Assembly (NCBI GenBank): GCA_950295325.1
Contig: OX485804.1
Location: forward strand, 33,416,001-33,480,000
Source of the DNA: Polytrichum commune
Lineage: Eukaryota; Streptophyta; Polytrichopsida; Polytrichales; Polytrichaceae
Direction of reading: 5' to 3'
Length of the DNA stretch: 64,000 bases
Shown here piece after piece: positions 1-24,241 of this stretch. The position numbers were made by a program, and so were the translations under genes. Positions within the stretch are counted from its first letter, which is position 1. Each line of letters starts with the position of its first letter. Under the pieces are notes generated by a model. It was not told the origin of the DNA. It ran no database searches and saw only the letters and a program-made list of their open reading frames with translations.

Positions 1-1414
1 GCCACATATGGCACCTAATTCACCTCATTCTAAACACGAGCCATCCGAGGTGGAGGACGACGCGCTTGAAGACTAAAGGATATAACCTATCCTCGCATTC
101 GAAGACTAAAGGATATAACCTATCCTCGCGTTTGAAGACTAAAGGATATAACCTATCCTCGCGTTGAAGACTAAAGGATATAATCTATCCTCGCATTTGA
201 AGACTAAAGGATATAACCTATCCTCGCATTTGAAGACTAAAGGATTGTAATCCTCGCAATTGCAAATTCAAAGGGATTGAGATATTATCCCCGAACTTGA
301 AGGCGTAAAGGATTGAAGAATCCTCGAAATGATTCAAGACTTTAGAGGATAGGAAATCTTAGAGTTTCTTCAACACGAAGAGGATCAAGGATCCGTAGAA
401 AATTGAGATTTTGGAAAATCAAATAAACCGGAGGAACTTTTGGAGACATTGATTTGAGAGTTGATTAAACTTGAAAGCGTAAAGCCAAAATTGGCAGTAC
501 TCGAAAGAATTAAAAAATGGAGCAAAGCCAAATTGGATACCTAGAGCTACTCGAGTGTGATTTGAGGTAGATTGAGCTAGGTGGCGAAGTCGAAATCATG
601 ATCTAGAGAACGTGGTGGACGCGACATGGAGATTATCAAAACATGAAATCATTTCAACTTGTGTACACGGAATGCGGCCGGCAAATGGAACCTCATCAAC
701 CTCTCAACTCGGAGCAAGATTAGGATTTCAAACTCTACTTCATAGATTTAAAGAACTCAAAAATCATGTGATATGATTGAAGATTAATACTCGAATACGG
801 AACAAACATTTAATGAAAGCTTTTCACGAGAACATTATGTAAACTCTAGGAATTGAGTAGAAGAATGAAATCTTATGAATATACTTTAGTGAGGGGGTAT
901 GTTTGGACCTTCAAAGGAATCGTGAACTTATCATAAACATACATTCTTAATGGATTAAGGATATTTTACGATCATTCAAACCATGAAAGATATTGTATGT
1001 ATGAATGATGTTCTCCCTAAAACACTTAACCCTGACATTAAGATTTCGGGGAACATAAACTTGACAACTTGGACACTTTATCCTTAGGGATTTATAAAAG
1101 GATTTTGAAACACTTTTCTTGATTACGAAAAGTATTGTGTTGTTAAATCTATTTGAAGGTTTAGGATCACCTAACCTTGACATTAGATTTCGGGGGACAT
1201 AAACTTGAAAACTTAGGTCAATTTGTCCTTGAGGATTCAAAAAGAGCATTAAGATTTTGTATCACAAAATTAAGATTATATGAGTGCAAACACCTTCACC
1301 AGAAATGGAAATCAAATGAAGGATCTAATTTTGGTGGGAGTAATTTCCATGTAAACCGGTCAGCAGCGGGTTACACCGTCTAAGTTTGCTGAGGGTTTGA
1401 AGGTGACCTCGACA
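1..1414 (+). repeat. 5' LTR, partial (R-U5 part)
   Basis: This matches 19284-20697 base for base apart from G1378. It begins a few bases after the TATA box seen in the 3' copy (19273-19280), so nearly all of it should be transcribed leader. It ends with CTCGACA directly before the primer site. It contains six 33-bp hairpin units (68-262) and an internal direct repeat with a GATTTCGGGG core near 1042 and 1186. Small reading frames here (such as the minus-strand one at 947-1249) lie inside the LTR and are not credible genes. Confidence 0.95.
68..262 (+). repeat. Six tandem 33-bp hairpin units in the LTR/RNA leader
   Basis: Units start with GAAGACTAAAGG at 68, 101, 134, 166, 199 and 232 (period 32-33). 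Each carries AGGATA, a short TAACC spacer, then TATCCT, so each can fold into a 6-bp hairpin. The sixth is altered (AGGATTGTAATCCT) but stays self-complementary. A degraded seventh unit may lie at about 299-331. The same array is in the 3' LTR at 19351-19545. Being downstream of the TATA box, the hairpins would be in the transcript; a role in packaging, dimerisation or translation is inference. Confidence 0.9.
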
Positions 1415-1527: not shown

Positions 1528-2145
1528 ATGGAGAACTTGTATTACCTATATAATGGGAGAAGCCAACGGGAGGCAAATGAACAACGGAAGTGGGCGGAAA
1601 CGTTTGGACCGCGAAAACAAGATCGTGTAGAAAGAGCAGTGCAACGGCGACTCGAACAGTTTAACCTCCGCGGCTTTATTGTGCAGGAAAATAGAGAAGG
1701 AGAAGAAGATAACTCTAAACAACAAGAAATCTCAATCCTAGGCAGGTGGCCGTGGGATTATCCAAAGTATAACACCGATAAAACAACCTTGAGAAAATGG
1801 GAAGGAACGAAGAAATTCCACGACTTGATGTGGGACATGCAAAAATACTACGAAGACAAAACATGGCAGTTGTTTAAAGAAAAAGAAATAGGCTTTACTT
1901 ACCGGTCTCAATTTGAGAGAAGCATTGAGGAATTACCAGAGGAACTACAAGCGTTAATTTATTCCAAGGTGTGGAATAACGGAGGTGAAGGTATTTATGC
2001 CCATGCGTTGGGAGCAACCAAGCATCGAGGATACCACTATAAACAGGAGGGGTTATTGTATGATTTGTATGTTAGAAAGATATTCTTACCTCTGTATGGT
2101 GGTTTGCATGGTAGTGTGGGGAACTTGAATGTGGAACAGGAATAG
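1528..2145 (+). CDS. Leader ORF (ORF1) upstream of gag, 205 aa, unknown function
   Basis: This open frame of 205 codons lies between the primer site and gag, in a different frame from gag (+1) and separated from it by 136 bases. The protein is charged and hydrophilic, rich in Glu, Lys, Arg, Tyr and Trp, with no signal peptide or membrane segment. The N-terminal third is basic (around EQRKWAETFGPRKQDR), and the C-terminal half holds aromatic clusters such as GRWPWDYPKY and HRGYHY. An ORF before gag is known from Ogre-type elements of the Tat branch, where its function is also unclear; that parallel is by position only. The start chosen is the first ATG giving the full frame, and an earlier overlapping ATG in another frame (1397) makes the real start uncertain. 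It could be read from the genomic transcript before gag. Confidence 0.6.
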   Translation: MENLYYLYNGRSQREANEQRKWAETFGPRKQDRVERAVQRRLEQFNLRGFIVQENREGEEDNSKQQEISILGRWPWDYPKYNTDKTTLRKWEGTKKFHDLMWDMQKYYEDKTWQLFKEKEIGFTYRSQFERSIEELPEELQALIYSKVWNNGGEGIYAHALGATKHRGYHYKQEGLLYDLYVRKIFLPLYGGLHGSVGNLNVEQE

Positions 2146-2281: not shown

Positions 2282-5200
2282 ATGGTTGATCATGAGGATA
2301 CATCTAGTACGAGAAGTACATCACCAACTCCTAGAGAACAGGAGGCAGAGAAGAAGCATGTGGAGCGCATGCATTCCAGAGAAGACCGCATAAGGCGGAC
2401 TGAACAACTCAAGAGAGAAAGAGAAGAGAGGTACGCTAGGCGTACAAGACAAAGAACTACAGGAAGTGAAGAGAGCCGATACGCTTCTGAACCACCGGCA
2501 ATAGGTTCCCACACCCCTAAGCCCAGCCACCATAGAAGTCAAAGTGAAGGAGGAGGTAATGGTGAGACAAGCAAAGAACATGAAGACTTGGATGAAGAAA
2601 ACTTGAATCAAGGAGAAAGCGAGGAAAACGAGGATGATCTGATAATAGGAACCCCTCTTGGGACCTACGTATTGAGAACAAAAGGTACAGGTAAAACCAC
2701 GGGTACGCATACCCCAGTAGATAAAGCGCAAGACAAAACCCATCAAGAAAACACGACCGAGGAAGATATTTTCGACCAAAGGAGTTGGGAGAAACTAAGA
2801 AGGAATTTTGAAGAACAATTCAGCTACGAGGACTCCGGCTTCTCAGGAGGGAGCACTCAGAACCAAACGGACCAAGAAATCAAAAAGCCCATCACACAAG
2901 AAGAATTCGACGAATTAAGGAGGAAATTTGAAGAAAGACTTAAACAATTCCAAAACCTTGGAATTAACACCAGAGTCAGCCCACCACCACCACCACCTCC
3001 AAATAACAACAATCCACCTGGTGTTGGAAACAACCCAACCACTTCAGCCAACATGGCTGCACAACAACGGAGAACAAAGGTTCCCTTACCGACCTACAAA
3101 GGTAAGACAGATCCCGACACCTACATGCAAGAATTTAACAATGTGTGTCTTGCCAACCAGGAAGACACAGATGCAATCAAGTTGCAATTATTTCCAGTCA
3201 CCTTGAAAAAGCGAGCATTAGAATGGTACTCCCAATTTGGCCCAAATCATTTTCCAGATTGGCCCACTTTAGGAACTGCTTTTCTTATGAGATTCAGATC
3301 AAAGAAATCGGAGGGGGAAGTCATTGAAAGCTTAGGCTCCCTCAAACAAAAGAAGGACGAAACGGTTGAAGAATTCTATGAACGGGTTATGGTGGAATCG
3401 TCAAAAATTAATCCCCAACCCAGCAATCAATTCAAAAAGGCATGGTTCCTTAACGGCCTAAAGAAAGAATATGCCAAGCATATTGATTTAATGCCAACCG
3501 ATGACTTGGATGAAGCCAAAGCCTCAGCTCGGAAATTGGAGCTAGGACAAATGAGAAAAGGAAGATTCCATGATGAGAGTGACAGCGATGACTCAAGCGA
3601 TGACTCTGAAGAAGAGCGGAAAAAGAAAAAGAAAAAGACAAAGAGCAAAAGGAACGATTCAACCAAAGATGACATCAAGACTCTCAGGGAAGAGATTGAA
3701 GGATTAGCTCTAGGGAGCAGAAAATTTCGAACAGGCATCATATGTCGGAGATGCCGAAATGAAGGACACTATGTTCAAGAGTGTCAAATGAAGCAGTGCA
3801 CGAACTGCAACAGCCTAACACACAACACAAGTGAATGTGTTTACGAAAGACATGAATCTCGGAGGCCCCGAGATAGGAGATATGGGGTAAACCAAGTACA
3901 ACCCCAAGCTAATCATAGGCCAGGAGCGATAACTCCTAGGCGAGAAATGAATGAAAGAAGGGTTCGGTTTGAACCAAGGATAGAATTCCGGAGAGATGAA
4001 AGATCCCCCTTTAGGGAGGGCGATTACCGGCGGGAGGCGGGAGGCCCCTACCGGGGAAATGAATATCGCAGAGAGGAACGGCCATACTATAGGCCCAACA
4101 ACAACTACCGAGATGAGTTCAGAAGGGAAGGTTATATCCCTTACAAAACCCAAGATTACCGGAGGGAAGATGGATACCCCTACCGAGGAGGCCCCAGAGG
4201 ACCTATTAACCATGACAGGTATGAGTATACCAGGAGCCTGATGGATAATAACAACACCAAGGCAGCGCCGAGAACTGGGTTCACTGGCGGACCACAGCGA
4301 GATGGCAACCCCGACGAGTGTTTCTATTGTCATCAGAAGGGGCACCGGAAGCCGGATTGTCCGCACTTTATTAAACACCAACAGGAGTTGAGTGGATTTA
4401 GAAACCCAAAACCGGCAGTAGGAGCCAACGTGGTGTCCCCTGCGGTTTGTGTGATGACCAGAGGCCAACGGGCCGCAGCCGAGAAAGGCAAAGAAGATAG
4501 TGAAAGTGATGACAGCGATGACAATGATGAATCAAGCAGTGGCAGCTCAGAAAAGCAAGAAGACCACCAAAAGAGGGAGGAGAACTCCGAAGATGAAAGG
4601 GATGACGCATTCGAGGATAATGAACGCAACAAAGTGATTGAAAAAAGGCCGATAGGAGCCAACAGTGAAGAATGGAAAGCGGATAGGGAAGTCCACCGGG
4701 AGGTGAGTAAGACTATCCATGAAATACAGGAGGAAGAGGGCGAAGCTCTACCCACGCCAGAAGAGTTCGCACCTTGGTACCCAGAAAAAGAAGAGGCAGA
4801 GAAGCCCGTGAAACGGAGCCCCGAGAAGGGAGGCGTCCCAACAGCTACCCGGGCAAGGGTAGATAAAATTTTAGAGAGTGTGATGAATCACACAAAAGCA
4901 AACATCTCAATAGGGCAGCTGTTAGAGATAGCCCCCTATTGCAAGAAACGGGTAATGGCGGCCCTTACCAGCCAAGAGGAGGAAACGGAGAAACCGACCT
5001 CTACATATCACGTAACAGCAAAGGCGTTCGACGAAGAAATGCCCATGATATCAGTGATCGTTAAGAACATAAGAGTTCCAAATGTTTTAATCGATGGTGG
5101 CTCAGGAGTGAACATCATCACTAATACCTTAAGAAAGAAACTAGGGCTTGACAAAATAGAGCCCGCCCCATTTACCATCAAAATGGCTGACCAAAGGAAA

Positions 5201-8200
5201 GTCATGCCCAAAGGAATCATCCGGGATGTACGCCTTGATGTCGGCGGCATCGTGATCCGGACAACACTCACCGTCATAGACATGGTGAGCACCGAAGATA
5301 GTTACTCTCTATTATTAGGGAGACCATGGTTGAAGGAGGCTCAAGCACAACATGATTGGCCCCTCAACAAATTGACCTTGACTCAAGGAGGAAGCAAGGT
5401 GGAATTGAGTACTCAAAGAACCCCGGCACTACCACCGGGTAGGAGACCCTTAAATTGGGAGGACTACGACTGGGAGATGGGACTATCTGATGAAGAGGAA
5501 GCAATAGTCTATGAAGCATTTCCCGAGTTGCTACCTATGGGAGACTTTGATTTGAAAAGCTTAAGGAAGTTGAAGGAGTCAAGCTGTAATACAGTGGGGG
5601 TTGATAACCCTAAGAAACCGGGAAGGCCTAGAGCAAACCCCGGCGAACAAGAGAAACCTCGACCTCGTAAAGCTACCAAGAAGGAGCAAGAGGCCATGGA
5701 AGAGAAACCCGTATATCCGGACCAATTCTACAAAGTTAAAGAAGGGGATATAACGGTGGACGTTACTCCTGCCGCGGAGGCAGTGAAAGGAAAGAAGATA
5801 GCGGGATGGACCGTAGAAGATGAAGACCTAGTCAAAAATTTGAACCTAGGAACCCTTGAAGATCCTAAATTGGTGAAAATTTCCAAGGACTTGGGAGAAT
5901 ACGAAGCTAAAGTGAAAGATCTTTTGCTTCGTTTTAAAGATGTGTTCGCATTTACCTATAAGGACATGAAAGGGATACCCCCGTATGTTTGTGAACACAA
6001 GATTGAATTGCAACCGGAAGCCAAGCCGGTGCGGCAGATGCGGTACAGAATGAACCCCAATTACGCCGCCAAAGTGAAGGAGGAAATTGATAAGTACTTG
6101 GAAGCCGGGTTCATATACCCTGTCGACAAAACGGAATGGCTATCACCGATCGTGATTGTGCCAAAGAAGAATGGGAAACTACGAGTGTGCGTTGACTACC
6201 GCAAACTCAACGCAGTCACCAAGGTAGACCCTTTTCCTCTACCTTTTACCGAATCAATTTTGGAAGCTGTTGCAGGACACGAGATGTATACGTTAATGGA
6301 CGGGTATAGTGGTTACAACCAAATCATGATCGCTCTGGAGGATCAATTGAAGACATCTTTTATTACCGAGTATGGAGCTTTCGCATACCGAGTAATGCCC
6401 TTTGGTTTGATGTGTGCCCCAGCCACATTCCAAAGGGGAATGATGAAAATATTTGCAGACTACCTTGATAAGTTTATGAAGGTTTTCCTAGATGATTTTA
6501 CAGTATATGGAACCAAGGAGGACCATATCGAACATCTAGAGAAATGTTTGATCAAGTGCCGAGAAAATGGAGTAAGCCTAAACCCGGAGAAATGTTTTTT
6601 CTGTGTAAATTCGGGAAGGCTCCTTGGACATGTGGTTTGCCAAGAAGGCTTGTTGGTGGACCCCAAAAAGGTGGACGTAATAGGAAAGTTACCTCCACCA
6701 ACCACAGTACGGGGAATTCGGAGCTTCTTAGGACAAGCCACATATCACCGGAAATTCATTTGGATGTATGCGGAAATCACTAGACCTCTGTACTTACTTT
6801 TGAAGAAAGGGGAAAAATACATTTGGACAAAATCCTGTCAAGAGGCGTTTGAGGGGGTGAAGAAAAGACTCACAACAACGCCTATACTAATAACCCCCAA
6901 TTGGGCTATGGAGTTTCACGTACATTGTGATGCCTCCAACATAGCCATTGGTGCGGTTTTGGCTCAAAACATCCACGGAGATAGAGATTCTCCAATATAC
7001 TATGCCAGCAGACTTCTAAACAACGCCGAGAGGAATTACAGCACCACCGAGCGAGAAGCTTTGGCGATGATTTATTCAGTCGGTAAGTTTAGACATTACC
7101 TTCTAGCTAACCATGTGGTTTTCTATGTAGACCACCAAGCTTTACTATATCTAGTCAACCGACCAGTGGTATCTGGCCGAATTGCTAGATGGATGTTACT
7201 ACTTCAAGAATATGACTTTGAAGTAGTCTACAAACCTGGGAGAAGCCATGTGATGGCCGACCACCTATCAAGGATAGAAAGCGGAGAAGATCCCTCAGGA
7301 GTACAAGACCAGTTTCCGGACGCCAGCCTCTTTATGGTGCACGTGCAACCTTTCGAAGATTGGCGAACACCTTTTATTGAATACCTTACCCATGGAAGAT
7401 TACTGTCAGCTCTAACCACTTCACAAGAGCAGGACAAGATCAAACAACTAAGTGAACCATTCGTTTTGAACAACGAAACACTCAAACGGGTAAGCATCAC
7501 TGGCAAAATACAGGAGTGTATCGCTGGCGACATCGTTGAAGAGATAATAGGGGAAGCCCATGAACACGAAGGAACACATGTTAATTACAATACCACGTGG
7601 CAAAATATTCTGCGCACACCTTATTGGTGGCCTACAAGGAGGAAAGATGTCTTGGCATATTGCCAAGAATGCCCGATATGTAACATGGTAAACAAAGGTG
7701 AGATACACGACGCAATCTCACTGGCCGATATTGAAGACCCTGATAACGTGCTACCAAATGAGCCTTTGGAAGCCGGAGAAAACTTGGCAGGTGGTGCTGA
7801 TCCCGATTGGACAACCCCATATGTCCAATATTTGACCCATGGAACCAAATGGGAAGACGACCTACCTTACGAGGAACAACAACTGATAGCTCATCGCAGT
7901 CAGTTTTACATACTAAAAGAAGGGGAATTACATCGCATCTTCCAAAACAACGTTGTCAAAAGATGTATGCCTGGAAAGTACGTGAAAAACTACATAAAGG
8001 CTTTCCATATACGTGAAAATCGGCATTACTCATTCGACGCCACCCTGCAACTCATCTTACGAGAGCCATATTGGTGGCCCACCATAGCAGAGGATCTCTC
8101 GTTGTTCATAACTTTGTGTACAGGTTGTCGTGGAAAAGGGGACGAGCTGGCCCCAAAGGAAGGATCCCACGAACCTACTACCTCAGAAGGCGCCGTACCC

Positions 8201-11200
8201 TATGAAGAGACCCTCAACGATTGGAGAACACCAATAATCGAGTATCTGACCCAGGGAGAAATCAAGGTAGGGACACTTACGCGAAGGGAACACAAAGAGA
8301 TCATACGAAGAAGCGAGTTTTTCACGATGGACAAAGGAAAACTCAGGAGATTAGAGAGGAATGGGAAAACCAAAGAATGCATTGCGGGACCTCAAATCAA
8401 GCAATGGATAGAGAAAATGCATACTTACCAACAAAAACATTTGACCGCTGATCAAACTTGGTTTCGGATCTCGAAGGGAAATCGATGGTGGCCTACCATG
8501 GGGATCTACGACGTACAAAATTTTATCAAATACGATTGCCCGACATGTCGGGAACAATTTCACAACTTAGCAAGCTTATTCATGGTACATGTGCAGCCGT
8601 TTGAGGACTGGCGAGCACCTTTTATCGAGTACCTGACTCACGGGAAGTTGTTATCCGTTCTAGCTACCCCTAAGGAACAGACTAAAATTTGGCAATTGAG
8701 TGAACCATTCGTTTTGGACGAAGAGAAGCTCATGCGGGTCAGTATCTCCGGCAAAATACAGGAATGCGTAGCTGGGGACATCATCGAAGAGATTATAGGT
8801 GAAGCTCATGAACAAGACGGAGTGCATTACAATCTGTCTACTACATGGCACTATATATTATGCACACCTTATTGGTGGCCCACACGGCGAAGGGACGTAC
8901 TGGAGTATTGTGATGAATGCCCAGTATGTAAGTGTGCAGACAAAGGTGACGTGACTGGGGACGTTACCCCACACGACTCCGAAGAAGACGATGACCCACT
9001 TCCTGTCAAACCTTTGGAGGCACAAGAGGATATGACAGGAAAAGCGGAACCAGATTGGACAACACCATATGTCCAATATCTAACATGTCAAACGTACGGT
9101 ACACCATGGGTGAATTCCCTACCTCTAGAGGAAAGGAGATTGATTGCTTACCGCAGTCGATTCTTCATACTCAAAGAGGGAGAATTACATCGTATGTTTC
9201 ACAACGGCATCGTAAAGAAATGTATACCGGGAAGGTATGTGAGGAGTTACCTCAAGACCCTCCATATAAAGGAAAATCGGCATTTCTCGGAAAACGCCAC
9301 CAGACAACTGGCGCTACAAGGCCCTTATTGGTGGCCAACCATCGCGGAAGATGTGTCGCTACTCATCACGCTATGCACTGAATGCGAAGGGCAGGGAGAA
9401 GAGTTACCAATGGAGGGAAGCTCTACTCAACCTAGTAATGAAACGGATATGATACCTTACAAAGAAACCTTCTACGATTGGAGAACCCCCATAGTTGAAT
9501 ACCTGGCACGAGGGAAATTCAAAATGGATGCAGAAACTCAAAGACGGCAAAGAGAGCTCCTACGGGATAGCGAGTTCTTCGCTTTAGAGAAAGGAAAACT
9601 CCGGAAATTGGAGAAAAACGGAATGGCCAAGATTTGCATTGGAGGTTACCAGATAAAGCATTATATCGGGAAAATGCATGTCTATCGAAAAGCACATCTG
9701 AACGATCAATACACCTGGCTACGATGTTTACAAGGGAACCGGTGGTGGCCCACGATGGGGCTGTGCGACATACAAATGTACATTATGTACGACTGCCCGT
9801 CTTGTCGAAGAAGATTTCGAGGCCCGCTCCATAACATAATTTGCGGGTCCATTGCCGTACAACCACAAGACACCAAGGATTGGAGGAAGTTATTGATAGA
9901 ATACCTCACCTACGGATACCTTAAAGGACCCCGTATTTCAAAGAATCAATACAAGAAGATAACTCGACAAAGCCAGGAATATTTCATCGAAGAAGGAAAA
10001 CTAAAAAGGATATTCCCGGACGGAGACATTAAGATATGTATTGCCGGACGCGAGATTGACGAACACTTGAAAGGTTTACACGTAACCGATTCAGGAGAAC
10101 ATCTCAGCATGGAATTAATGTGGCACCTAGTCACGTTTGGACCCTACTGGTGGCCCACGTGCGGAGCTGACATTAAAAACTTATGCAATCATAAATGTTT
10201 GACCTGCAGCAACCAACTGGAGTTCTCAAAAGGCAAGCAAAACCAATCACACCTAGGCAAGAAAGAATTCCAAGGAACACCTACCCCAGATTGGAGACGC
10301 CCTTATATGGAATATTTGACATGCGAGAAGATCTTTACCCTAAACTTAACACCAGAAGATAAAAGGGCTGTGGAACACAGCCATAAATATTTTGTGTTCA
10401 CCGATGGTACTTTACAAAGAATTCGTAAAGGAGGCAAGAATAATCAACGCTGCATTCCGGAAGCCCACGTACCCAGGTACTTGGCTAGGATTCACGGAGA
10501 AACTAAACCTCATTTGGCCGCCATGGAAACATGGAAGGCAGTGGCCACAGGAGAATACTGGTGGCCAACATGGGGAGTTGATGTGTGCAACCATCTAAGA
10601 GATTGCAAAACTTGCAAAGGAATGGGACGTTGGGAAACGCAACCAGCGGAGAATCAAAACTCGGTTGTGCAAGAATCAACACACGAGCCAGATTGGAGGC
10701 TCTCAGTTATACAACAACTAAATAGCATCGAGAAACTGGACCATATTAACAACCAAGAGGAATTGGGGTTAACCAGTTTCGACACGGAGACTTATTTCGT
10801 AACCGAAGATGGTCTGAAATACCGCTTACCAAATGGGATGGTAAAAATGTGCATCACTAAGGAGGATGCCATTGATTGGGTAAAAAGAATCTATGGGTAT
10901 CAAGTACCCCCTCTTCCGAAAGAAGAAATATACACAGAAATACACAAAGGCCCCTATTGGTGGCCAAATATTTCCCGGGACGTGGAATATACACTCAACG
11001 AATCCAGAAGGTATCAGGATACCTTACTACCAGGTTTTAAAATTGAGAACTATGGAACTGTCTTACGAAGCCAGAAGGCACATGATTGGAGAGAACCAAT
11101 CATCCAACACCTCAAGAACCCCATGGAACTTAGCAATTTTGCCTTCCACGAGGAATTGGGAGTGTCGCGTGAAGAATTACCCCAGTATTTCTTGCAAGAA

Positions 11201-12142
11201 GGGGAATTAAAACGGAAGCCCACCAATGGAGACATTAAACTTTGCATCTCCAAAGACAAAGGGATTAAATGGTTGACAACCGTACACCATCAAGGAAACC
11301 CACATCTCTCAATGGACGAGATGATCTCACAAGTCAACACAGGACCATATTGGTGGCCCACAATTCCTCCTGATATTGACTATTTATGCAGACATTGCAG
11401 GATTTGTTGGCCCGATCAAATCACAGGACGGATGGTCGGGTGCACCACGATCACAGCGAAAAGGGAAAACGAACAAGACTGGAGAACCCCCTACATTGAT
11501 TACTTAAAACATGGTCGCTTGACCACAGAAGCGTCCACTACGCAACGACAACAAATAGCAATACGCAGCCGACCTTTCATGTTAAACCAAAACGGGACAC
11601 TAATCAAAGAGGGTCCAGACGGCATGCGGAGAACATGCGTGGCTGGACCAGTGACCACAACTATCATTGCGGAAGCTCATGAGGGTATAGCCGGAGGACA
11701 TTTTTCAGCTAGAATCACCCTCCACAAGATTTTGACCGCTTTGTATTGGTGGCCCACCATGAAGCGAGATGTTCATTTATATTGCACTCAATGTGATATA
11801 TGCCAAAGGGTTGGTCCTAAAGTATCCACAAACCTCCAACCCTTACACCCTACAATGCCTACTGAGGTATTTCAAAAATGGGGTTTGGATTTCATTGGAC
11901 CAGTCAATCCGCCAGCTAAAGGCACCAAAAATCGGTACATCATTACGGCCACCAACTACACCACCAAATGGGTTGAGGCCAGAGCTTTGAAAGATAACAC
12001 GGCGAAGTCAACAGCCAAATTTCTCTTCGAAGAAATAATTACAAAATTCGGATGCCCATTGGAGTTCGTGAGCGACCAAGGAAGTCATTTTATTAATGAC
12101 ACTATCAAAGTACTCACCCAAGAATTTATGATTTTACATTGA
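2282..12142 (+). CDS. gag-pol: Gag-Pol polyprotein with eleven integrase HHCC modules, ending at an in-frame TGA
   Basis: One frame of 3286 codons. In order: acidic/basic N-terminus; proline run near residue 235; Gag domain about 270-400; lysine run near 450; three CX2CX4HX4C zinc knuckles starting at residues 488, 506 and 680 with an Arg/Tyr-rich stretch between the second and third; protease with DGGSG (Asp938); reverse transcriptase about 1270-1440 with FLDD (1402-1405); RNase H with Asp1550, Glu1590/Glu1592 and Asp1617 and a closing ADHLSR; then eleven repeated integrase N-terminal modules (1693 to about 3190); then the integrase core with Asp3203 and Asp3265. The TGA at 12140-12142 falls before the catalytic Glu, and the frame continues beyond it. 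Without the array, Pol would be of ordinary length. Gag and Pol are fused in one frame with no frameshift. The ATG at 2282 is the first in frame. Products should form cytoplasmic virus-like particles and a nuclear integration complex. Confidence 0.95.
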   Translation: MVDHEDTSSTRSTSPTPREQEAEKKHVERMHSREDRIRRTEQLKREREERYARRTRQRTTGSEESRYASEPPAIGSHTPKPSHHRSQSEGGGNGETSKEHEDLDEENLNQGESEENEDDLIIGTPLGTYVLRTKGTGKTTGTHTPVDKAQDKTHQENTTEEDIFDQRSWEKLRRNFEEQFSYEDSGFSGGSTQNQTDQEIKKPITQEEFDELRRKFEERLKQFQNLGINTRVSPPPPPPPNNNNPPGVGNNPTTSANMAAQQRRTKVPLPTYKGKTDPDTYMQEFNNVCLANQEDTDAIKLQLFPVTLKKRALEWYSQFGPNHFPDWPTLGTAFLMRFRSKKSEGEVIESLGSLKQKKDETVEEFYERVMVESSKINPQPSNQFKKAWFLNGLKKEYAKHIDLMPTDDLDEAKASARKLELGQMRKGRFHDESDSDDSSDDSEEERKKKKKKTKSKRNDSTKDDIKTLREEIEGLALGSRKFRTGIICRRCRNEGHYVQECQMKQCTNCNSLTHNTSECVYERHESRRPRDRRYGVNQVQPQANHRPGAITPRREMNERRVRFEPRIEFRRDERSPFREGDYRREAGGPYRGNEYRREERPYYRPNNNYRDEFRREGYIPYKTQDYRREDGYPYRGGPRGPINHDRYEYTRSLMDNNNTKAAPRTGFTGGPQRDGNPDECFYCHQKGHRKPDCPHFIKHQQELSGFRNPKPAVGANVVSPAVCVMTRGQRAAAEKGKEDSESDDSDDNDESSSGSSEKQEDHQKREENSEDERDDAFEDNERNKVIEKRPIGANSEEWKADREVHREVSKTIHEIQEEEGEALPTPEEFAPWYPEKEEAEKPVKRSPEKGGVPTATRARVDKILESVMNHTKANISIGQLLEIAPYCKKRVMAALTSQEEETEKPTSTYHVTAKAFDEEMPMISVIVKNIRVPNVLIDGGSGVNIITNTLRKKLGLDKIEPAPFTIKMADQRKVMPKGIIRDVRLDVGGIVIRTTLTVIDMVSTEDSYSLLLGRPWLKEAQAQHDWPLNKLTLTQGGSKVELSTQRTPALPPGRRPLNWEDYDWEMGLSDEEEAIVYEAFPELLPMGDFDLKSLRKLKESSCNTVGVDNPKKPGRPRANPGEQEKPRPRKATKKEQEAMEEKPVYPDQFYKVKEGDITVDVTPAAEAVKGKKIAGWTVEDEDLVKNLNLGTLEDPKLVKISKDLGEYEAKVKDLLLRFKDVFAFTYKDMKGIPPYVCEHKIELQPEAKPVRQMRYRMNPNYAAKVKEEIDKYLEAGFIYPVDKTEWLSPIVIVPKKNGKLRVCVDYRKLNAVTKVDPFPLPFTESILEAVAGHEMYTLMDGYSGYNQIMIALEDQLKTSFITEYGAFAYRVMPFGLMCAPATFQRGMMKIFADYLDKFMKVFLDDFTVYGTKEDHIEHLEKCLIKCRENGVSLNPEKCFFCVNSGRLLGHVVCQEGLLVDPKKVDVIGKLPPPTTVRGIRSFLGQATYHRKFIWMYAEITRPLYLLLKKGEKYIWTKSCQEAFEGVKKRLTTTPILITPNWAMEFHVHCDASNIAIGAVLAQNIHGDRDSPIYYASRLLNNAERNYSTTEREALAMIYSVGKFRHYLLANHVVFYVDHQALLYLVNRPVVSGRIARWMLLLQEYDFEVVYKPGRSHVMADHLSRIESGEDPSGVQDQFPDASLFMVHVQPFEDWRTPFIEYLTHGRLLSALTTSQEQDKIKQLSEPFVLNNETLKRVSITGKIQECIAGDIVEEIIGEAHEHEGTHVNYNTTWQNILRTPYWWPTRRKDVLAYCQECPICNMVNKGEIHDAISLADIEDPDNVLPNEPLEAGENLAGGADPDWTTPYVQYLTHGTKWEDDLPYEEQQLIAHRSQFYILKEGELHRIFQNNVVKRCMPGKYVKNYIKAFHIRENRHYSFDATLQLILREPYWWPTIAEDLSLFITLCTGCRGKGDELAPKEGSHEPTTSEGAVPYEETLNDWRTPIIEYLTQGEIKVGTLTRREHKEIIRRSEFFTMDKGKLRRLERNGKTKECIAGPQIKQWIEKMHTYQQKHLTADQTWFRISKGNRWWPTMGIYDVQNFIKYDCPTCREQFHNLASLFMVHVQPFEDWRAPFIEYLTHGKLLSVLATPKEQTKIWQLSEPFVLDEEKLMRVSISGKIQECVAGDIIEEIIGEAHEQDGVHYNLSTTWHYILCTPYWWPTRRRDVLEYCDECPVCKCADKGDVTGDVTPHDSEEDDDPLPVKPLEAQEDMTGKAEPDWTTPYVQYLTCQTYGTPWVNSLPLEERRLIAYRSRFFILKEGELHRMFHNGIVKKCIPGRYVRSYLKTLHIKENRHFSENATRQLALQGPYWWPTIAEDVSLLITLCTECEGQGEELPMEGSSTQPSNETDMIPYKETFYDWRTPIVEYLARGKFKMDAETQRRQRELLRDSEFFALEKGKLRKLEKNGMAKICIGGYQIKHYIGKMHVYRKAHLNDQYTWLRCLQGNRWWPTMGLCDIQMYIMYDCPSCRRRFRGPLHNIICGSIAVQPQDTKDWRKLLIEYLTYGYLKGPRISKNQYKKITRQSQEYFIEEGKLKRIFPDGDIKICIAGREIDEHLKGLHVTDSGEHLSMELMWHLVTFGPYWWPTCGADIKNLCNHKCLTCSNQLEFSKGKQNQSHLGKKEFQGTPTPDWRRPYMEYLTCEKIFTLNLTPEDKRAVEHSHKYFVFTDGTLQRIRKGGKNNQRCIPEAHVPRYLARIHGETKPHLAAMETWKAVATGEYWWPTWGVDVCNHLRDCKTCKGMGRWETQPAENQNSVVQESTHEPDWRLSVIQQLNSIEKLDHINNQEELGLTSFDTETYFVTEDGLKYRLPNGMVKMCITKEDAIDWVKRIYGYQVPPLPKEEIYTEIHKGPYWWPNISRDVEYTLNESRRYQDTLLPGFKIENYGTVLRSQKAHDWREPIIQHLKNPMELSNFAFHEELGVSREELPQYFLQEGELKRKPTNGDIKLCISKDKGIKWLTTVHHQGNPHLSMDEMISQVNTGPYWWPTIPPDIDYLCRHCRICWPDQITGRMVGCTTITAKRENEQDWRTPYIDYLKHGRLTTEASTTQRQQIAIRSRPFMLNQNGTLIKEGPDGMRRTCVAGPVTTTIIAEAHEGIAGGHFSARITLHKILTALYWWPTMKRDVHLYCTQCDICQRVGPKVSTNLQPLHPTMPTEVFQKWGLDFIGPVNPPAKGTKNRYIITATNYTTKWVEARALKDNTAKSTAKFLFEEIITKFGCPLEFVSDQGSHFINDTIKVLTQEFMILH
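7322..8569 (+). repeat. Three-module block, copy 1 (units 1-3)
   Basis: The block begins with codons for ASLFMVHVQPFEDW and covers HHCC units 1-3. The same opening recurs 1248 bases later at 8570, and units 1/4, 2/5 and 3/6 resemble each other far more than their neighbours. This indicates a block duplication after the units had diverged. Confidence 0.85.
8570..9834 (+). repeat. Three-module block, copy 2 (units 4-6)
   Basis: Diverged, in-frame copy of 7322-8569. The paired units keep the same special traits: units 1 and 4 have a tyrosine-cysteine before the CxxC, units 2 and 5 have WWPTIAED, and units 3 and 6 have RWWPTMG in place of YWWPT. Unit 7 opens with a related LHNIICGSIAVQPQD stretch, suggesting an older third round. 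Confidence 0.85.
12140..12142 (+). other. In-frame TGA inside the integrase catalytic core
   Basis: The TGA follows MILH and precedes KSTTYYPQ in the same frame. The second catalytic Asp (codon 3265) and the Glu after it (codon 3301 in the unbroken frame) are 35 residues apart, the normal D-D(35)E spacing, so no bases were gained or lost. A single transition from TGG or CGA would explain it. It removes the catalytic Glu and the C-terminal domain unless it is read through. Confidence 0.9.
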
Positions 12143-15862: not shown

Positions 15863-18508
15863 ATGGAAATCACCACAGTTTCAGTGTCTGCAGGAAAGCA
15901 ACTGTCACAGCAGGGTGAGGCTTGGAGTTTGATCAAGTCAGGGGCACTCAGGGCTTTAGCAACCATCAGGTTTAGCACTGGAGATACCAAGTTATACCCT
16001 CCCTTGTGCAAGCAGCACATTTGGCAACACGCCTTGCTTCAAGCAGTCAGCCAAGCGGCCAAGCTTCTGAGAGAGCTCCCACACCTTAAGTTGATGCACG
16101 GGTTGCTCCCCTACACACCAATGGAGTCGTTCACTTTCAGCATGGATGCTGCATTTAAGAGCACTCAATTCAGCAAGGAGGAGTTGACCTTCTTGCGCAA
16201 GCTGCGACTGGAGGAGTTCCTGTGCGACGTGCCATGGGGAGTGTTGCATTCAGTCCGAGCAGCAGAGGTTATCAACACCTTGCAAGAGGAAACGCTGAAG
16301 GTCAACCTTAAAGGTGAAACCTTCCCTCTGTTCACTGAAAATTGGAGGGACTTATTTCGGAACATCTTTCATTTGTCACCCAAAGGGGCGGGTGGAGGAG
16401 AGACACGGCAGTTGCATGAGCTCTTCCCTTCTTTAAAGGTCATACAAAAAGGGCAGGTCACAGTGAAGGTGAGTGACTGCCAATTGGCCGGTTCCAAAAG
16501 GCCATTGCGCCTTCTCAGTTCATTCTTTTGCCTCAACACAACAGGTCAGTACAGTGTCACCATCCATTTTGCTAAGCTAGTGTTGGCTGCAATCAACGGA
16601 CAAGCAGTGGATTGGCCTCTAGAGTTCTTTGATGAGTTTAAAGCGGAAGTGGTCACTCTGCATCGAAACCAACAGGAAGATAAAGCAAAGGTCATTAAAA
16701 CGGCAATTGGACCTCATCTGACCATGATTTTAGAAAAGGCCAAACTCTTGGACAAGCAGGAAAGGAAGACAGCAGGGTATGGCACCCCAGCAGGGTTGTC
16801 CATGACTGAAAGGGAACCCCCAGCCAGGAAACGAAAATTGAGTGACCAAATAGGGAAGGGAAAAATGGATGCAGTCATACGGATCACCAACCGTTACCCC
16901 CACCCCTCCAAAAGTCAGGCCCAGGCGGCTCGTGACACGGATGCAACGGGGGAGCCTTCCAAGCGGCGAGTCATACAAGCTGCAGAAAAGTGGCAGGTAC
17001 CAGATAGTACTTCCACCATGATCAACCAGATCTGTTTCACTCATCGCAGGTTAGAGCAATTGTTAACCACATTTACCAGTAAAGCTGGACCAGAGTTCAT
17101 TCAGAAAATGGACGATGAATTCCAAAAATTGCAGACTGATGCCACCAGCCACTACAAACAGGGATTAAGGGAGAGAGAATCCCTCACTGAAAATGAGCAT
17201 GCGGTAGAGAAGGGTTTGTTACAGATGGAAATCAGAAAGCTCACCGACCAAATTTCAGCTCTTAATGAGAATTATGATGAGCAGATCGAGGTGTCGTTCG
17301 ATCTCCAGGAACAATTGACCACGGCAGAGGAGGCATTGGCCACTCTCACAAAAACCAACAAAACACAACAAGCACAATGTGACCAACTGACTGAAGACTT
17401 GAACCGGCAGAACAACAGGCTGGCGGAAATAGAAGCGGAACTGGAAGCTACCCAAGTACAATTCACCGAACTACAGCTCCAGCATCAGGGGCAGTCCGAT
17501 CTTTTAGCGACCACACAAGAGCGGCTTCGGCTACAAAATCTGGCATCAAAATCGACCAGTCCGGATACCCCCAGATCCGGGGATCAGACGCCACATGCAA
17601 GTGGCAGCACAGTCCACATACCTACATCAGGGCTCTATTCAATGGTGGAAGGGGCCCTGAATCAACCCGAGACCAAGGAACGTGCCATCAGCGAGTTACA
17701 GCAGGAACTTGCATACATCCGGCGTGAGAGGGATGAACTCCAGGTGACACTGGGAAGGACAATGGAAAGCCCCCGCACGATTGATGAAGAAGCACTCGGC
17801 CCGGCAGACATTCCCAGATCAAGCACAATGCCGAAGGCCGCCATCTACCACCAGCTAACAACCAACATCCCTCCTTTTACTACTATCATGCAATATTTCC
17901 AGGCTATGAAGGGCCTCAATCTCTTGGTCAGCCGGGTACCGCTCCTCAAACCAGGTACTACCCTTTCGAAGAGCCAATTTGAACAGATCTGGGAAATGGC
18001 TGATGCTACCGCCAGAGACACAATTGCATTCATGTGGGTTACAGGGGATATCAAATTGCATGCAGGGATGATGGAATTAGTCACGGGATCCCCACCCTTT
18101 TATGTTGGACGATTCATGCTCAGAACATTGAGTTTCATCAGCCACCATCACTCAACCTACTACAACCACACCCCATCACATAGGCTGCCCACCCTTAAGT
18201 CCTACTCGAACTCTGTTTTCCGCCAGATCAGGGACTTTGTGAAAAACCAACCCATCACATTCACCCAGGCGCTCAAAAATCTCTCTACAGAGGATACAAC
18301 CATTTGTTACGAAGCCACCCAGCAATACACATGGTTACAGGAGCGCCATCCCCACAGGTTACCCGAACCTTACACGATTCAACAGATTCAAGACTACGCA
18401 ATGCGAGTGATTAAGGAAAAGGAAACCACCCTCTCCACGCGGCGTTTCGGCACACCCAGCCCACGCACGATCCTCCAGACAGATCACTACTGTCAAGCAA
18501 GAGCATAG
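15863..18508 (+). CDS. Extra large ORF between pol and 3' LTR, coiled-coil protein of unknown function, 881 aa
   Basis: Long sense-strand frame starting in a good context (ACCATGG) and ending 16 bases before the polypurine tract. I do not recognise the family. Residues about 1-290 form a globular alpha-helical region with several Leu/Trp-rich helices. Residues 310-385 are basic and flexible with nuclear-localisation-like clusters (PPARKRKLSDQ, EPSKRRV). About 390-580 is Gln/Glu-rich coiled coil; 580-690 is Ser/Pro/Thr-rich linker with a further short coiled coil. 690-881 is a second globular part with His-rich HHHSTYYNH. There is no signal peptide, clear membrane segment or zinc finger, so it does not look like a classical envelope protein. 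Its base composition is richer in GC than gag-pol, hinting at a different origin. Position matches the env or extra-ORF slot of Athila/Tat-type elements. It may be made from a spliced RNA (acceptor near 15783). Confidence 0.8.
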   Translation: MEITTVSVSAGKQLSQQGEAWSLIKSGALRALATIRFSTGDTKLYPPLCKQHIWQHALLQAVSQAAKLLRELPHLKLMHGLLPYTPMESFTFSMDAAFKSTQFSKEELTFLRKLRLEEFLCDVPWGVLHSVRAAEVINTLQEETLKVNLKGETFPLFTENWRDLFRNIFHLSPKGAGGGETRQLHELFPSLKVIQKGQVTVKVSDCQLAGSKRPLRLLSSFFCLNTTGQYSVTIHFAKLVLAAINGQAVDWPLEFFDEFKAEVVTLHRNQQEDKAKVIKTAIGPHLTMILEKAKLLDKQERKTAGYGTPAGLSMTEREPPARKRKLSDQIGKGKMDAVIRITNRYPHPSKSQAQAARDTDATGEPSKRRVIQAAEKWQVPDSTSTMINQICFTHRRLEQLLTTFTSKAGPEFIQKMDDEFQKLQTDATSHYKQGLRERESLTENEHAVEKGLLQMEIRKLTDQISALNENYDEQIEVSFDLQEQLTTAEEALATLTKTNKTQQAQCDQLTEDLNRQNNRLAEIEAELEATQVQFTELQLQHQGQSDLLATTQERLRLQNLASKSTSPDTPRSGDQTPHASGSTVHIPTSGLYSMVEGALNQPETKERAISELQQELAYIRRERDELQVTLGRTMESPRTIDEEALGPADIPRSSTMPKAAIYHQLTTNIPPFTTIMQYFQAMKGLNLLVSRVPLLKPGTTLSKSQFEQIWEMADATARDTIAFMWVTGDIKLHAGMMELVTGSPPFYVGRFMLRTLSFISHHHSTYYNHTPSHRLPTLKSYSNSVFRQIRDFVKNQPITFTQALKNLSTEDTTICYEATQQYTWLQERHPHRLPEPYTIQQIQDYAMRVIKEKETTLSTRRFGTPSPRTILQTDHYCQARA

Positions 18509-18541: not shown

Positions 18542-20697
18542 TGTAGAGACATTCTGCATCAGACAACTGCGAGGTGATTTCGGTGACAAAAACATGCACA
18601 AGCTAAGAAGCAGCAGCAGCAGCGCAAGGGGGAGCCGATCGAGGGTAAGGACCAGAGGAGGCCGCGGAGCAGACCGGGAGCGGCCACGTGGCAGAACAGG
18701 CTGGGAGCCCAGCTAGGGGAGCTGGAAGGAGGACTGTGAGCCCAAGAGGGAGAAGGCCGCGAGAATTAGGGCCAGGCCACCTCTCTTTGGTAGGACCCAC
18801 CAAGCTTACTAATTAGGGTTACGTGTCGAGCTAGTGAAACTCTATACTAGAAGGTTAGGGGCCCAAGTTTAGTGAACCTATTAGTAAAGCGTTTCGCACT
18901 AGTAGGTTAGGAGCTACTTAGTAGAATAGTAAGTAGGGATGGGAGAGGATGAACCCAGAAAATGGTAGATGAAAGGACATGGGGATGACTATTTCTGAAT
19001 GAACTCACCTAACTACATTGCCGTCAATGAATGACGAGCCAATTTTGGGGATGAATGGAGGAAATGAATGGTAACCAACTCATGGCACATCTAGGCGGTT
19101 AGAACATGCCCGTATGTACTTCATGGGTAGATCTATTTTAAGCACGTGTCAGTCTAATTATAGATCTGACAGGGTTGAATTTAGACTGTAAGGGCATATA
19201 TGACTAAAATTAGTAAATACAGACATTTAAAGACCTAACCGCCACATCTTAGATTACCCTAAATTCGAAGCCTATATAAAGGGGCCACATATGGCACCTA
19301 ATTCACCTCATTCTAAACACGAGCCATCCGAGGTGGAGGACGACGCGCTTGAAGACTAAAGGATATAACCTATCCTCGCATTCGAAGACTAAAGGATATA
19401 ACCTATCCTCGCGTTTGAAGACTAAAGGATATAACCTATCCTCGCGTTGAAGACTAAAGGATATAATCTATCCTCGCATTTGAAGACTAAAGGATATAAC
19501 CTATCCTCGCATTTGAAGACTAAAGGATTGTAATCCTCGCAATTGCAAATTCAAAGGGATTGAGATATTATCCCCGAACTTGAAGGCGTAAAGGATTGAA
19601 GAATCCTCGAAATGATTCAAGACTTTAGAGGATAGGAAATCTTAGAGTTTCTTCAACACGAAGAGGATCAAGGATCCGTAGAAAATTGAGATTTTGGAAA
19701 ATCAAATAAACCGGAGGAACTTTTGGAGACATTGATTTGAGAGTTGATTAAACTTGAAAGCGTAAAGCCAAAATTGGCAGTACTCGAAAGAATTAAAAAA
19801 TGGAGCAAAGCCAAATTGGATACCTAGAGCTACTCGAGTGTGATTTGAGGTAGATTGAGCTAGGTGGCGAAGTCGAAATCATGATCTAGAGAACGTGGTG
19901 GACGCGACATGGAGATTATCAAAACATGAAATCATTTCAACTTGTGTACACGGAATGCGGCCGGCAAATGGAACCTCATCAACCTCTCAACTCGGAGCAA
20001 GATTAGGATTTCAAACTCTACTTCATAGATTTAAAGAACTCAAAAATCATGTGATATGATTGAAGATTAATACTCGAATACGGAACAAACATTTAATGAA
20101 AGCTTTTCACGAGAACATTATGTAAACTCTAGGAATTGAGTAGAAGAATGAAATCTTATGAATATACTTTAGTGAGGGGGTATGTTTGGACCTTCAAAGG
20201 AATCGTGAACTTATCATAAACATACATTCTTAATGGATTAAGGATATTTTACGATCATTCAAACCATGAAAGATATTGTATGTATGAATGATGTTCTCCC
20301 TAAAACACTTAACCCTGACATTAAGATTTCGGGGAACATAAACTTGACAACTTGGACACTTTATCCTTAGGGATTTATAAAAGGATTTTGAAACACTTTT
20401 CTTGATTACGAAAAGTATTGTGTTGTTAAATCTATTTGAAGGTTTAGGATCACCTAACCTTGACATTAGATTTCGGGGGACATAAACTTGAAAACTTAGG
20501 TCAATTTGTCCTTGAGGATTCAAAAAGAGCATTAAGATTTTGTATCACAAAATTAAGATTATATGAGTGCAAACACCTTCACCAGAAATGGAAATCAAAT
20601 GAAGGATCTAATTTTGGTGGGAGTAATTTCCATGTAAACCGGTCAGCAGCGGGTTACACCATCTAAGTTTGCTGAGGGTTTGAAGGTGACCTCGACA
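18542..20697 (+). repeat. 3' LTR, complete (2156 bp)
   Basis: Bounded by TGTAGAG and CTCGACA, an imperfect inverted pair with TG...CA ends, preceded by the polypurine tract. The right boundary is fixed by where identity with the 5' LTR ends. U3 (18542 to about 19300) has a GC-rich beginning with a CAG run near 18610 and a TATA box at 19273. The six-unit hairpin array is at 19351-19545. Compared with the visible 5' LTR only A20661 differs. Confidence 0.93.
19273..19280 (+). promoter_or_regulatory. LTR TATA box
   Basis: TATATAAA in the context CCTATATAAAGGGG is a strong plant TATA element. Transcription should start about 25-35 bases downstream, near 19300-19310, placing the hairpin array in the RNA. 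The equivalent box of the 5' LTR lies just left of base 1. Confidence 0.75.
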
Positions 20698-21559
20698 CTA
20701 ATTAAAGATTGGAAAAAGGGCTTTGAAAAGATTGTGATTTACTTAAGAGAACTTATCATGAAACAAGCATTGTAAGAAGCCGGAAGAGGCTAACTCTTTT
20801 GAATGAACAATCACAAAGATTTGTGCATAGTAACACTTGAGCTTAAAAAGGATTTGAGTACCTTTCACTTACTTGAGCAATCTTGACTAGAGGTACGCTA
20901 TCCATTGCATTAGGCTAAGGATCGTAACCAAGGATTTCTACTCAAGCAAAGCCGCCAAATAGGCAAATTCCACATCTTGTCACCATGATACCTATACTAA
21001 GATTTCACGTCATTCCAATCTAAGGAAACTTAGGAATAGTAAGTTAAGGCGTTGAAATCTAACCAAGGATATCTCGGAGAATTCTACTCAATAGATCTTG
21101 AGAATTCGGAATTACACCTAAGTAAGGGAATGTGAACTTTGTGGACTAAGAATAAAGTTAAGAATCAAAAGGGAAAGAATACAACAATTGTAAGTATATT
21201 CGAATTAAAAGATCTTAGTACAATATTCTTAGAATTGAAATGGAATAAGAATATTTCATTATCATTCAAACCATGAAAGATATTGTATGTAAGGATAAGA
21301 GTTTCCTTTAAAACACTTAACCCTGACATTAGGATTTCGGGGAACATAAACTTGCAAACTTAGGTCAACTACTCCTTGAGAGTTCAAAAGAGCATCAAGA
21401 TTACATGTTACAAAATTAAGGTAACAGAGAGAATACAAACACCTTCACAAGTATGAAAAGCTAAGATAATCTAATTTTGGTGGGAGTAACTTCCATGTAA
21501 ACCGGTTCGCAGCGGGTTACACCGTCTAAGTTTGCTGAGGGTTGAAGGTGACCTCGACA
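20698..21559 (+). repeat. 3' part of an older, diverged LTR of the same family
   Basis: From about 21260 to 21559 the sequence tracks the end of the LTR with many substitutions and small indels: shared landmarks are CATTCAAACCATGAAAGATA, TTTCGGGGAACATAAACTTG, a GTAAACCGGT...GCAGCGGGTTACACC block, and the terminal GAAGGTGACCTCGACA. The DNA immediately after 20697 is weakly LTR-like as well. The young element therefore probably inserted into this older LTR, whose left part should lie upstream of the window. Confidence 0.8.
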
Positions 21560-24241
21560 CACTCAATGTTGGTTATGGCATTTTCATGGACAAGTTTTGA
21601 GGTTAAAATGGGATTTGTCCGTAGCATCTTGACTTTGGAGATGAGCTATAACGAGGGAAAAACTTGGCATCAATAAACCTTGAAATTTGAATATTCTCAT
21701 AATTGAAGGAAGTGATGCACGAGAATTTGCCATGTTTTATCCCCAAAAAAGGACCTTTGACCAATCAATTTCACCTAGAAAGTGAGCAGAAGGTTTGTGT
21801 GATCCACTAGATGGGAACAACTCAATAGTTGAGAATCTCCACAAATTCTCATGCCAAATGTGCAAACCACAATAGGCTAGCCATCTCGAATTCGGAGCTG
21901 TATATAAACTATCCCATATTTCTAACCACACATTTGCAAAGAATTCCTTAAAATTTTGAAAATGCCCAAATGTTAAATTGTGAAATAAGACATATAGATA
22001 TTCAACATCGTTCAAATGACAAAGATTCAAATATGCACTACATACACCTTATCATAGTTGTCACATATGATCATAACTCTTTACTATCCAATTTCGGAGG
22101 AGTCCATCTCCAAGTCATGCCAAGTCATCATATACTTTACGCCAACATCATAAAGCAAAACTTGGACCAATAGTAAATTTGAACCAATATGATACATGAC
22201 GACTATAAAGTGCTTCTATTTTGGAGCATTGAGTGAGAATATTCTTGATTGTTGTCCTCATTCATACATCTATTGTTTGTGGAATTGATTGATTATCTTA
22301 TTGTGGCCAATAAAAGTATGTGTGACAACAAGGAGGGAGGGCGGGAGGGATATCATAGGCGTGAGCTCATGTGTGAGCATGGGGTAAGTTTACTGAGTAG
22401 GGATGTGGGACAAGTGTTGCTGCCTCATGTTGGAGACGGTCCCTTTTGGGTATGGGAGGGGTTCATGGGTTCCTAATGGTTGTAGAAATAGGTGTATGTG
22501 GTGTATCCAAAACATGGGTGTTATATTGACAACGTGGGTTATTGGTGATACTATGTGTTGGGATCACATCCTGAGTTTGTCATTGTTTATCCCACAATTT
22601 GTGCTAATTGGCAAGGTGTGAGTGACCTCAATGTAAGATTCACCTTTGGGGTTTTGTTGGTTGTGTGTGGGTTGGCTGTGATGGTTGTAGTTATTAGGGT
22701 AATATGGGGAGTTGGTAATTTTCTAGATGTCTCTTGTTGAGCATGAGGATTGTGAGGCAACGGAATGACATAGTCTATGGTTGCATCCACAGTTCTACCC
22801 GTAATATCCATAGAGACCACATTGTGATTGCCACATTATTTCTCCAACACCTGAACACCGGTTGGATGCTCTTTTTGAAAAGAGGACACTTTTGGCGGGA
22901 ATACTCAAGGTCTACTCCATAATGATGTTTTGAAAAGCAGATATGGGGTAGAAGCCACAATATTTTTTACTATCACTTTGAGCTCATAGCCACCCTCACG
23001 CCACCCTCCCAATTGTTGATTGGTTTTTTTTCCCAATAGAATCACATTAACCAGCAAAGAGAACCAAGATTCTCAATTCTTGACTGATGTTTCTTTTCAA
23101 AGAAAGAGATATTGGTAACATTTCTCTCTAATCACATATTTCCTGAAAATATTGAGAAAATTAATTATATATACTTTAGAAGAGAAAAATAAACTAAAAT
23201 AAATAATGTAGATGTGTATCATGTAGATGATTATCTATGCAACACAAAAACCTTCACAAACCCAAGGATTCTTTTTGATGAAAGGTTTGACATATTTTTT
23301 GTATTTCATTAGCAAAGTTTCCTCACTCTATACATACTAAGACCATAATGTTGTATATTTTAAGTCTACATATGATAAACATGGTTACAAAATATGCACA
23401 TGAGCCAATGTAATATCCGTTTTATGAACATTATTTCACACTCTTACTTTGAAATCGCTTACATTGGGAGCTAACTTAACTTTTATGGAACCACACTAAA
23501 CAATCCCACTCCTATGGGTAAAGAATCATCGTAATGATGATTAGTCTGGGCCACTCTAATTCTTGAGTCAGGGTAACATTAACATGGGTCCAAGACCTCG
23601 GATCTTCCCCTTAATCTTCCTGAAGACTTCCAACCAACAACTTACATGAAATAATACAATCACCTTATGTCAAAAATAGCGCAAAAAAAAACTAAAACCA
23701 CCCACAATATTCTACATTAAAAAGAACAATTAACATGGCCCACTATGATTTTCCCCTGAAACAATCATGTGGGTTGGAAATTAGTGTGGCCCACATCAAT
23801 TCTCACTACGGGAATTGGCGTTGGCTCTAGCGAATAGAGCTTCATGTTTGGTGCCGTTTCCGGAAAGATCCGAGGGTGGTGAGGCCCGGCCGTGCTATGC
23901 GTGTGAAGATAGTTTTGTGGGCCTACGGTATATAGTGTGATTCCACGCTTGCCTAAAAGGAGAGGGGGAGAGGGAGTGGGAGTGTTAGAGACGAAACGAC
24001 AATAGTGATGAGCTACTACTAACTTAATGCCTCGGGACATTGACTTGAATCTTGTGAGACCCAATCCCCATGTTGCCCACGACCGTAAGTTAGCTTTCCC
24101 TTCGCAAAGGAAGGCCAAATGAGGTTGATTCAAATCGCGGCTTTACATGCAACATGAAGTGCAGCTCGACATGCGGAGATGGGCATCCAATGGCCGGCTA
24201 CCTTGCCAAATAATAGTCCAATGAAGCTCCGTAACTAGGCC
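21560..24241. other. Non-coding DNA, no gene recognised
   Basis: Mixed intergenic sequence. Bases 22320-22760 are strikingly rich in G and T on the plus strand, similar in character to 37.6-39.7 kb. Bases 23815-24240 look like scrambled repeat relics. No reading frame shows a recognisable domain. Confidence 0.5.

Follow-up and report, generated by a model that had tools for sequence, protein, structure and literature searches.

A Ty3-type retrotransposon family of Polytrichum commune with strings of integrase N-terminal modules in Pol

The element and its array of units

We analysed 64,000 nucleotides of the Polytrichum commune genome (assembly GCA_950295325.1, contig OX485804.1, positions 33,416,001 to 33,480,000, forward strand), referred to below as the window. 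Its positions 1-20697 hold most of one long terminal repeat (LTR) retrotransposon of ~21.4 kb, the first 745 bases of which lie to the left of the window. The Gag-Pol open reading frame (ORF) of this element, 2282-12142, encodes 3286 amino acids and is open as it stands, and Pfam places its domains in the order of Ty3/Gypsy elements: gag, protease-like, reverse transcriptase (RT), RNase H, unit array and integrase core. The gag, RVT_1 and RNase H matches are above cut-off, those to protease and CCHC below it. Ty3/Gypsy elements usually carry a single module with the zinc ligands H, H, C and C (HHCC); the window copy, in contrast, encodes eleven in-frame units of ~130 residues at 7358-11815, each consisting of an integrase N-terminal extension and an HHCC zinc domain. 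We treat the eleven units as a variant trait of Ty3/Gypsy, because relatives with one unit occur in the same genome.

As seen from Table 1, where the first position of each unit is that of its opening DW, the units follow each other closely, units 1-10 spanning 129-149 residues with their linkers. An extension of ~57 residues is followed by the zinc domain; the D and W at the start, two leucines, a cysteine at residue 54, WWP and a later aspartate are invariant, and WWP(T/N) is found in each of the eleven. All four zinc ligands are present in ten units, which probably bind zinc, and unit 9 lacks all four. The Pfam profile Integrase_H2C2 matched the two halves of the array with E values of 2.2e-33 (five stretches) and 5.5e-31 (four stretches); applied unit by unit (PF17921), it placed six of the eleven above its cut-off. 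A leave-one-out profile built from the units themselves scored all eleven at 64-143 bits, the best of 200 shuffles of any unit reaching 10.7, so that by this measure all eleven are related. The preliminary description of this DNA had proposed eleven in-frame HHCC units in one Pol, and this is borne out: the leave-one-out profile recovers all eleven, not one genuine unit among look-alikes. The best match of the units, by sequence profile and by fold, is the N-terminal extension domain and N-terminal domain (NED-NTD) of prototype foamy virus integrase (PDB 3l2q, 4e7k), and structure prediction suggests that the units fold like that extension plus zinc domain, with disordered linkers.

Table 1. 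Features of the element in the window; units 1 to 10 are given with their linkers.
Feature	Position	Strand	Basis or remark
5' LTR, right part	1..1414	+	matches 19284-20697 with 1 mismatch; left part (745 bases) read from copy L033
ORF, 205 aa, upstream of gag	1528..2145	+	without any Pfam match
Gag, protease-like, RT and RNase H part of Gag-Pol ORF	2282..7321	+	Pfam
Junction peptide LFMVHVQPFEDW, RNase H/unit 1 border	7328..7363	+	sequence
Unit 1, cassette A, HHCC kept	7358..7804	+	passes Pfam cut-off
Unit 2, cassette A, HHCC kept	7805..8218	+	passes Pfam cut-off
Unit 3, cassette A, HHCC kept	8219..8605	+	below Pfam cut-off
Second copy of junction peptide, units 3/4, predicted protease site	8576..8611	+	identical residues, saturated synonymous change
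Unit 4, cassette B, HHCC kept	8606..9052	+	passes Pfam cut-off
Unit 5, cassette B, HHCC kept	9053..9475	+	passes Pfam cut-off
Unit 6, cassette B, HHCC kept	9476..9877	+	no Pfam match; leave-one-out 120.6 bits
Unit 7, HHCC kept	9878..10288	+	below Pfam cut-off
Unit 8, HHCC kept	10289..10690	+	passes Pfam cut-off
Unit 9, four zinc ligands lost in window copy, predicted fold remains	10691..11083	+	Pfam E 0.14
Unit 10, HHCC kept	11084..11476	+	below Pfam cut-off
Unit 11, ordinary integrase N-terminal module adjoining core	11477..11815	+	passes Pfam cut-off
Integrase catalytic core up to stop	11813..12142	+	Pfam rve 33.1 bits, cut-off 32.6
ORF, 881 aa, between integrase and 3' LTR	15863..18508	+	no Pfam match above cut-off
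3' LTR	18542..20697	+	start at TG, judged by eye in alignment

In the window copy an in-frame stop (12140-12142) lies inside the integrase core, and the same frame continues past it; since another copy that we read is open beyond that point, the stop is no family trait. The two LTRs (full length ~2.16 kb) differ by 1 mismatch in 1,414 bases within the window and, further left, by a three-base gap and no mismatch. The window copy was therefore inserted recently. Its flanks, CTAAA and CTAAT, are alike in four of five bases, a near target-site duplication. The Tat/Ogre lineage has a second, archaeal-type RNase H (PF13456) between RNase H and integrase; a scan of 4799-12142 in three pieces, admitting E values up to 1, did not find this domain. 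The element has an extra ORF upstream of gag. Both LTRs contain ~5.5 copies of a 33-base repeat (61-245 and 19344-19528). The 881-aa ORF, in sense orientation, has weak coiled-coil-type matches and is possibly an extra protein of the element.

To the right of the element, 21239-21560 is 84-87% identical to parts of the LTR and may be an older LTR remnant. A hAT transposase dimerisation domain (Pfam E 8e-9) lies on the minus strand at 28529-28849, next to a 512-aa ORF without a Pfam match (28934-30472), and tandem repeats occur at 24242-24956 (period 358 bases), 30901-31713 (179 bases) and 46320-46947 (316 bases).

Copies, cassettes and exchange

A first search of the genome (408 Mb, 64 contigs) gave at least 170 matches. 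Its query was two units, which biases the search, and we removed the bias with an RNase H search that is independent of the array, comparing 67 of the 150 RNase H matches (those of at least 68% identity) with 67 matches of the first search. A unit match directly downstream of RNase H, which tells of the presence of units and nothing of their number, was found in 37 of the 38 copies with at least 90% identity; the exception, L038, has neither unit nor core after RNase H. At 79-84% identity all 22 copies had such a match (21 by script, one by hand), and at 68-77% none of seven did; one of these seven (L034), when read, has one unit.

Close reading of the window copy and 20 further ones revealed eleven units in 8 of the 21 and eight in the other 13; L030 has eight units as well. 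In a sister family (identity 80-81% in RNase H, 82-83% in the core) L029 and L032 carry five units each, and L031 is cut short. The genome also holds four relatives at a greater distance (57-70% identity in RNase H), which have one unit each, the frame of L035 breaking inside it; one unit is thus the outgroup state in this genome. On the RT tree the five-unit copy groups with the eight- and eleven-unit copies (support 0.999), and the nearest outside proteins that reach the integrase, P0003 and P0005, have one unit each; named proteins in the nearest part of the tree come from a liverwort (Riccia) and a fern (Adiantum), which points to a non-seed land plant as host. We rejected an assembly artefact, as equally composed arrays are scattered over several contigs at many sites, and other genomic copies with 11, 8 or 5 units led us to reject a rearrangement private to the window copy, the outcome that had been named as fatal to the initial idea. 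Eleven, however, is one of several states of the array, and units 1-3 and 4-6 turned out to be two diverged versions, A and B, of one three-unit cassette; on these points the first account of the array has to be amended.

Eight-unit copies have either cassette A (L016-L019) or cassette B (L020-L028), followed by five units; in eleven-unit copies A comes first, B second and the five units last. On the cassette tree, rooted at the midpoint only, the leading three units of L016-L019 form one group with units 1-3 of all eight eleven-unit copies, and those of L020-L028 form another with units 4-6, both with support 1.0. This contradicts a simple recent duplication of units 1-3 into 4-6, which we rejected. 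The eleven-unit array may have arisen by fusion of A and B arrays or by an old duplication with later losses, both of which would fit the tree. In L020, ~2.8 kb of additional DNA separates unit 3 from unit 4 (L020:2806-5666).

Synonymous difference jumps along pairs of copies, indicating that the copies are mosaics: for the window copy and L012, the stretch from RT to unit 5 gives 0.05 and that from unit 9 to the core 0.38 (Fisher p 2e-36; one of six comparisons, picked after inspecting profiles). Such mosaics are as would be expected from template switching or other recombination.

Constraint on the added units

We estimated the ratio of nonsynonymous to synonymous substitution rates (dN/dS) for the units and the enzyme domains, using only full-length ungapped sequences of RT (18 of 21 copies), RNase H and core (19 of 21 each); unit counting kept the 177 complete units of 192, leaving out broken or partial ones. 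Synonymous distances above ~0.7 are saturated. For the added units, dN/dS was 0.14-0.27, with upper bounds of at most 0.34, in seven disjoint pairs of copies, which shows that they are under purifying selection. Unit 11 gave 0.03-0.08 in the four pairs for which data were available; for RT, RNase H and core taken together the ratio was 0.02-0.05. By position, the added units ranged from 0.10 to 0.35 (averages over non-independent pairs), unit 9 being highest. Between units 1-3 and 4-6, the nonsynonymous-site difference was 0.40-0.46 in linkers versus 0.13-0.26 in units.

The zinc ligands are nearly fixed. At positions 1-8 and 10, only 4 of the 410 cells in the ligand columns were changed; random sets of four columns averaged 56.2 changes, and none of 2000 such sets was as low. 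Selection on zinc binding after amplification, which had been suspected from the window alone, is thus supported by the ligand changes together with the dN/dS of the added units. At position 9, 15 of the 20 copies with a complete unit keep HHCC; the window copy and its four closest copies have lost it, as has L030. Each position also has a charge of its own: at ten of the eleven, every complete unit that we read carries a net charge of the same sign, with 1, 4 and 9 acidic, 10 mostly acidic, and the rest basic.

Possible roles of the added modules

Tentatively, and at somewhat under an even chance, we favour the view that this is a Ty3-type LTR family whose Pol carries eight or eleven (in the sister family five) modules under selection, the added ones being position-specialised docking sites. 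Through them, one integrase chain would make many contacts, be it with LTR DNA, with further integrase chains or with a partner from the host. In eleven-unit elements the duplicated junction peptide would allow a protease cut between units 3 and 4, setting free a protein of three units and leaving eight on the integrase. For a string of modules that is kept and diversified, multivalent docking on one chain would be the simplest role.

Several observations weigh against docking. The added units are less constrained than unit 11 and the enzyme domains, no packing between units is predicted (predicted template-modelling score, pTM, 0.36), and the zinc site of unit 9 was lost in the window's sublineage. 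In the five-unit family the third unit has no zinc ligands (L029:2921-3274, L031:2926-3288, L032:2856-3218), making it, beside unit 9, a second degenerate yet retained unit. Furthermore, since units 1, 4, 9 and mostly 10 are acidic, the array is no uniform nucleic-acid binder.

Prototype foamy virus integrase has one module per chain and gains its multiplicity from four chains (a tetramer), whereas the window family has many modules per chain. Ty3 integrase (PDB 7q5b; PMC8632968) is built as NED, NTD, catalytic core domain (CCD) and C-terminal domain (CTD), with one NED-NTD per chain against eleven, eight and, in the sister, five here. The Maedi-visna virus intasome comprises sixteen integrase chains, suggested by the authors of PMC9065133 to underlie multivalent chromatin contacts. 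The family described here may resemble it in bringing many integrase domains into one complex, if the module count per chain is a guide to assembly, and perhaps also in function; multiplicity in Maedi-visna, though, is in trans, whereas here the repeats are in one chain. A bolder form of the docking proposal, possible but clearly less probable, is a beads-on-a-string integrase in which zinc-module cassettes are added, swapped and partly released at a duplicated protease site, one chain replacing many.

Release bears on an alternative that we find rather doubtful, namely that the array is a precursor of small zinc proteins. The protease would cut it at one linker or at several, and the products, units on their own or in threes, would act apart from integrase, for example as nucleic-acid chaperones. 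Cassette B starts with the peptide of the RNase H/integrase border: in all eight eleven-unit copies the 12 residues at the unit 3/4 junction are identical to the border peptide and 6-9 synonymous differences apart (in 7 of the 8 copies a Leu-Leu codon pair is scored as one nonsynonymous step, the residues being identical). Of 2500 random stretches 71 contain the border motif D-x-x-L-[FLMY], compared with 42 of 50 related proteins; in three two-unit ENA proteins each unit is preceded by a similar L[FY] stretch; and the linkers are predicted to be disordered. This suggests that the unit 3/4 peptide is likely a second protease site, a role which we infer from its sequence. The preliminary description had raised release of units as small proteins, and for a three-unit piece the duplicated peptide lends this idea indirect support. 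We did not, however, find the peptide in the other linkers of the window array, which makes separate release of every unit unlikely, and eight-unit copies have it once (12 of 13; it was not found in L019, where the first unit is broken).

It is unlikely that the added units are instead a fast-changing recognition array, which picks insertion sites or evades a host silencing factor and exchanges cassettes to switch partners. In protein sequence they do evolve faster than the RT, RNase H and core domains, their charges are specific to position, the copies are mosaic, and the extension domain of Ty3 has been reported to bind TFIIIC; dN/dS, however, is well under 1 in every pair tested. Least probable of all is that recombination in the Pol frame produced the array and that it is merely tolerated, its frame staying open only because a stop codon would deprive the element of the downstream core: array length varies by whole cassettes, the copies are mosaics, a sublineage spread despite the loss at unit 9 and constraint is below that of the enzyme domains, but the dN/dS of the added units and their near-fixed ligands demand more than an open frame, and linkers have diverged more than units.

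The preliminary description knew of nothing like the array, which holds only in part. Among 128 public proteins compared, five have tandem unit pairs (P0001, P0002 (Fagus sylvatica), P0069, P0074, P0123 (ENA)), and in none do three units adjoin; in some long proteins several units lie at a distance from one another, and these proteins look like joined elements. As in the window family, the paired units are adjacent and lie between RNase H and core; the two-unit polyproteins, however, fall outside the clade of the window's family on the RT tree (P0123 is without RT). For arrays of more than two units, we found no description in open-literature titles and abstracts among the matches listed, subscription journals and preprints being outside the search; the words zinc and H2C2 are absent from the main text of a large plant survey (PMC6317226).

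Integrase N-terminal modules help to assemble the complex that inserts retroviral and retrotransposon DNA. The family shows that tandem domains adding up to ~1,400 residues can enter a Pol polyprotein and be retained by selection. Nature provides a series with one, two, five, eight and eleven modules, shaped by selection and by exchange of cassettes, and this series may offer a handle on what extra modules do for assembly and target choice.
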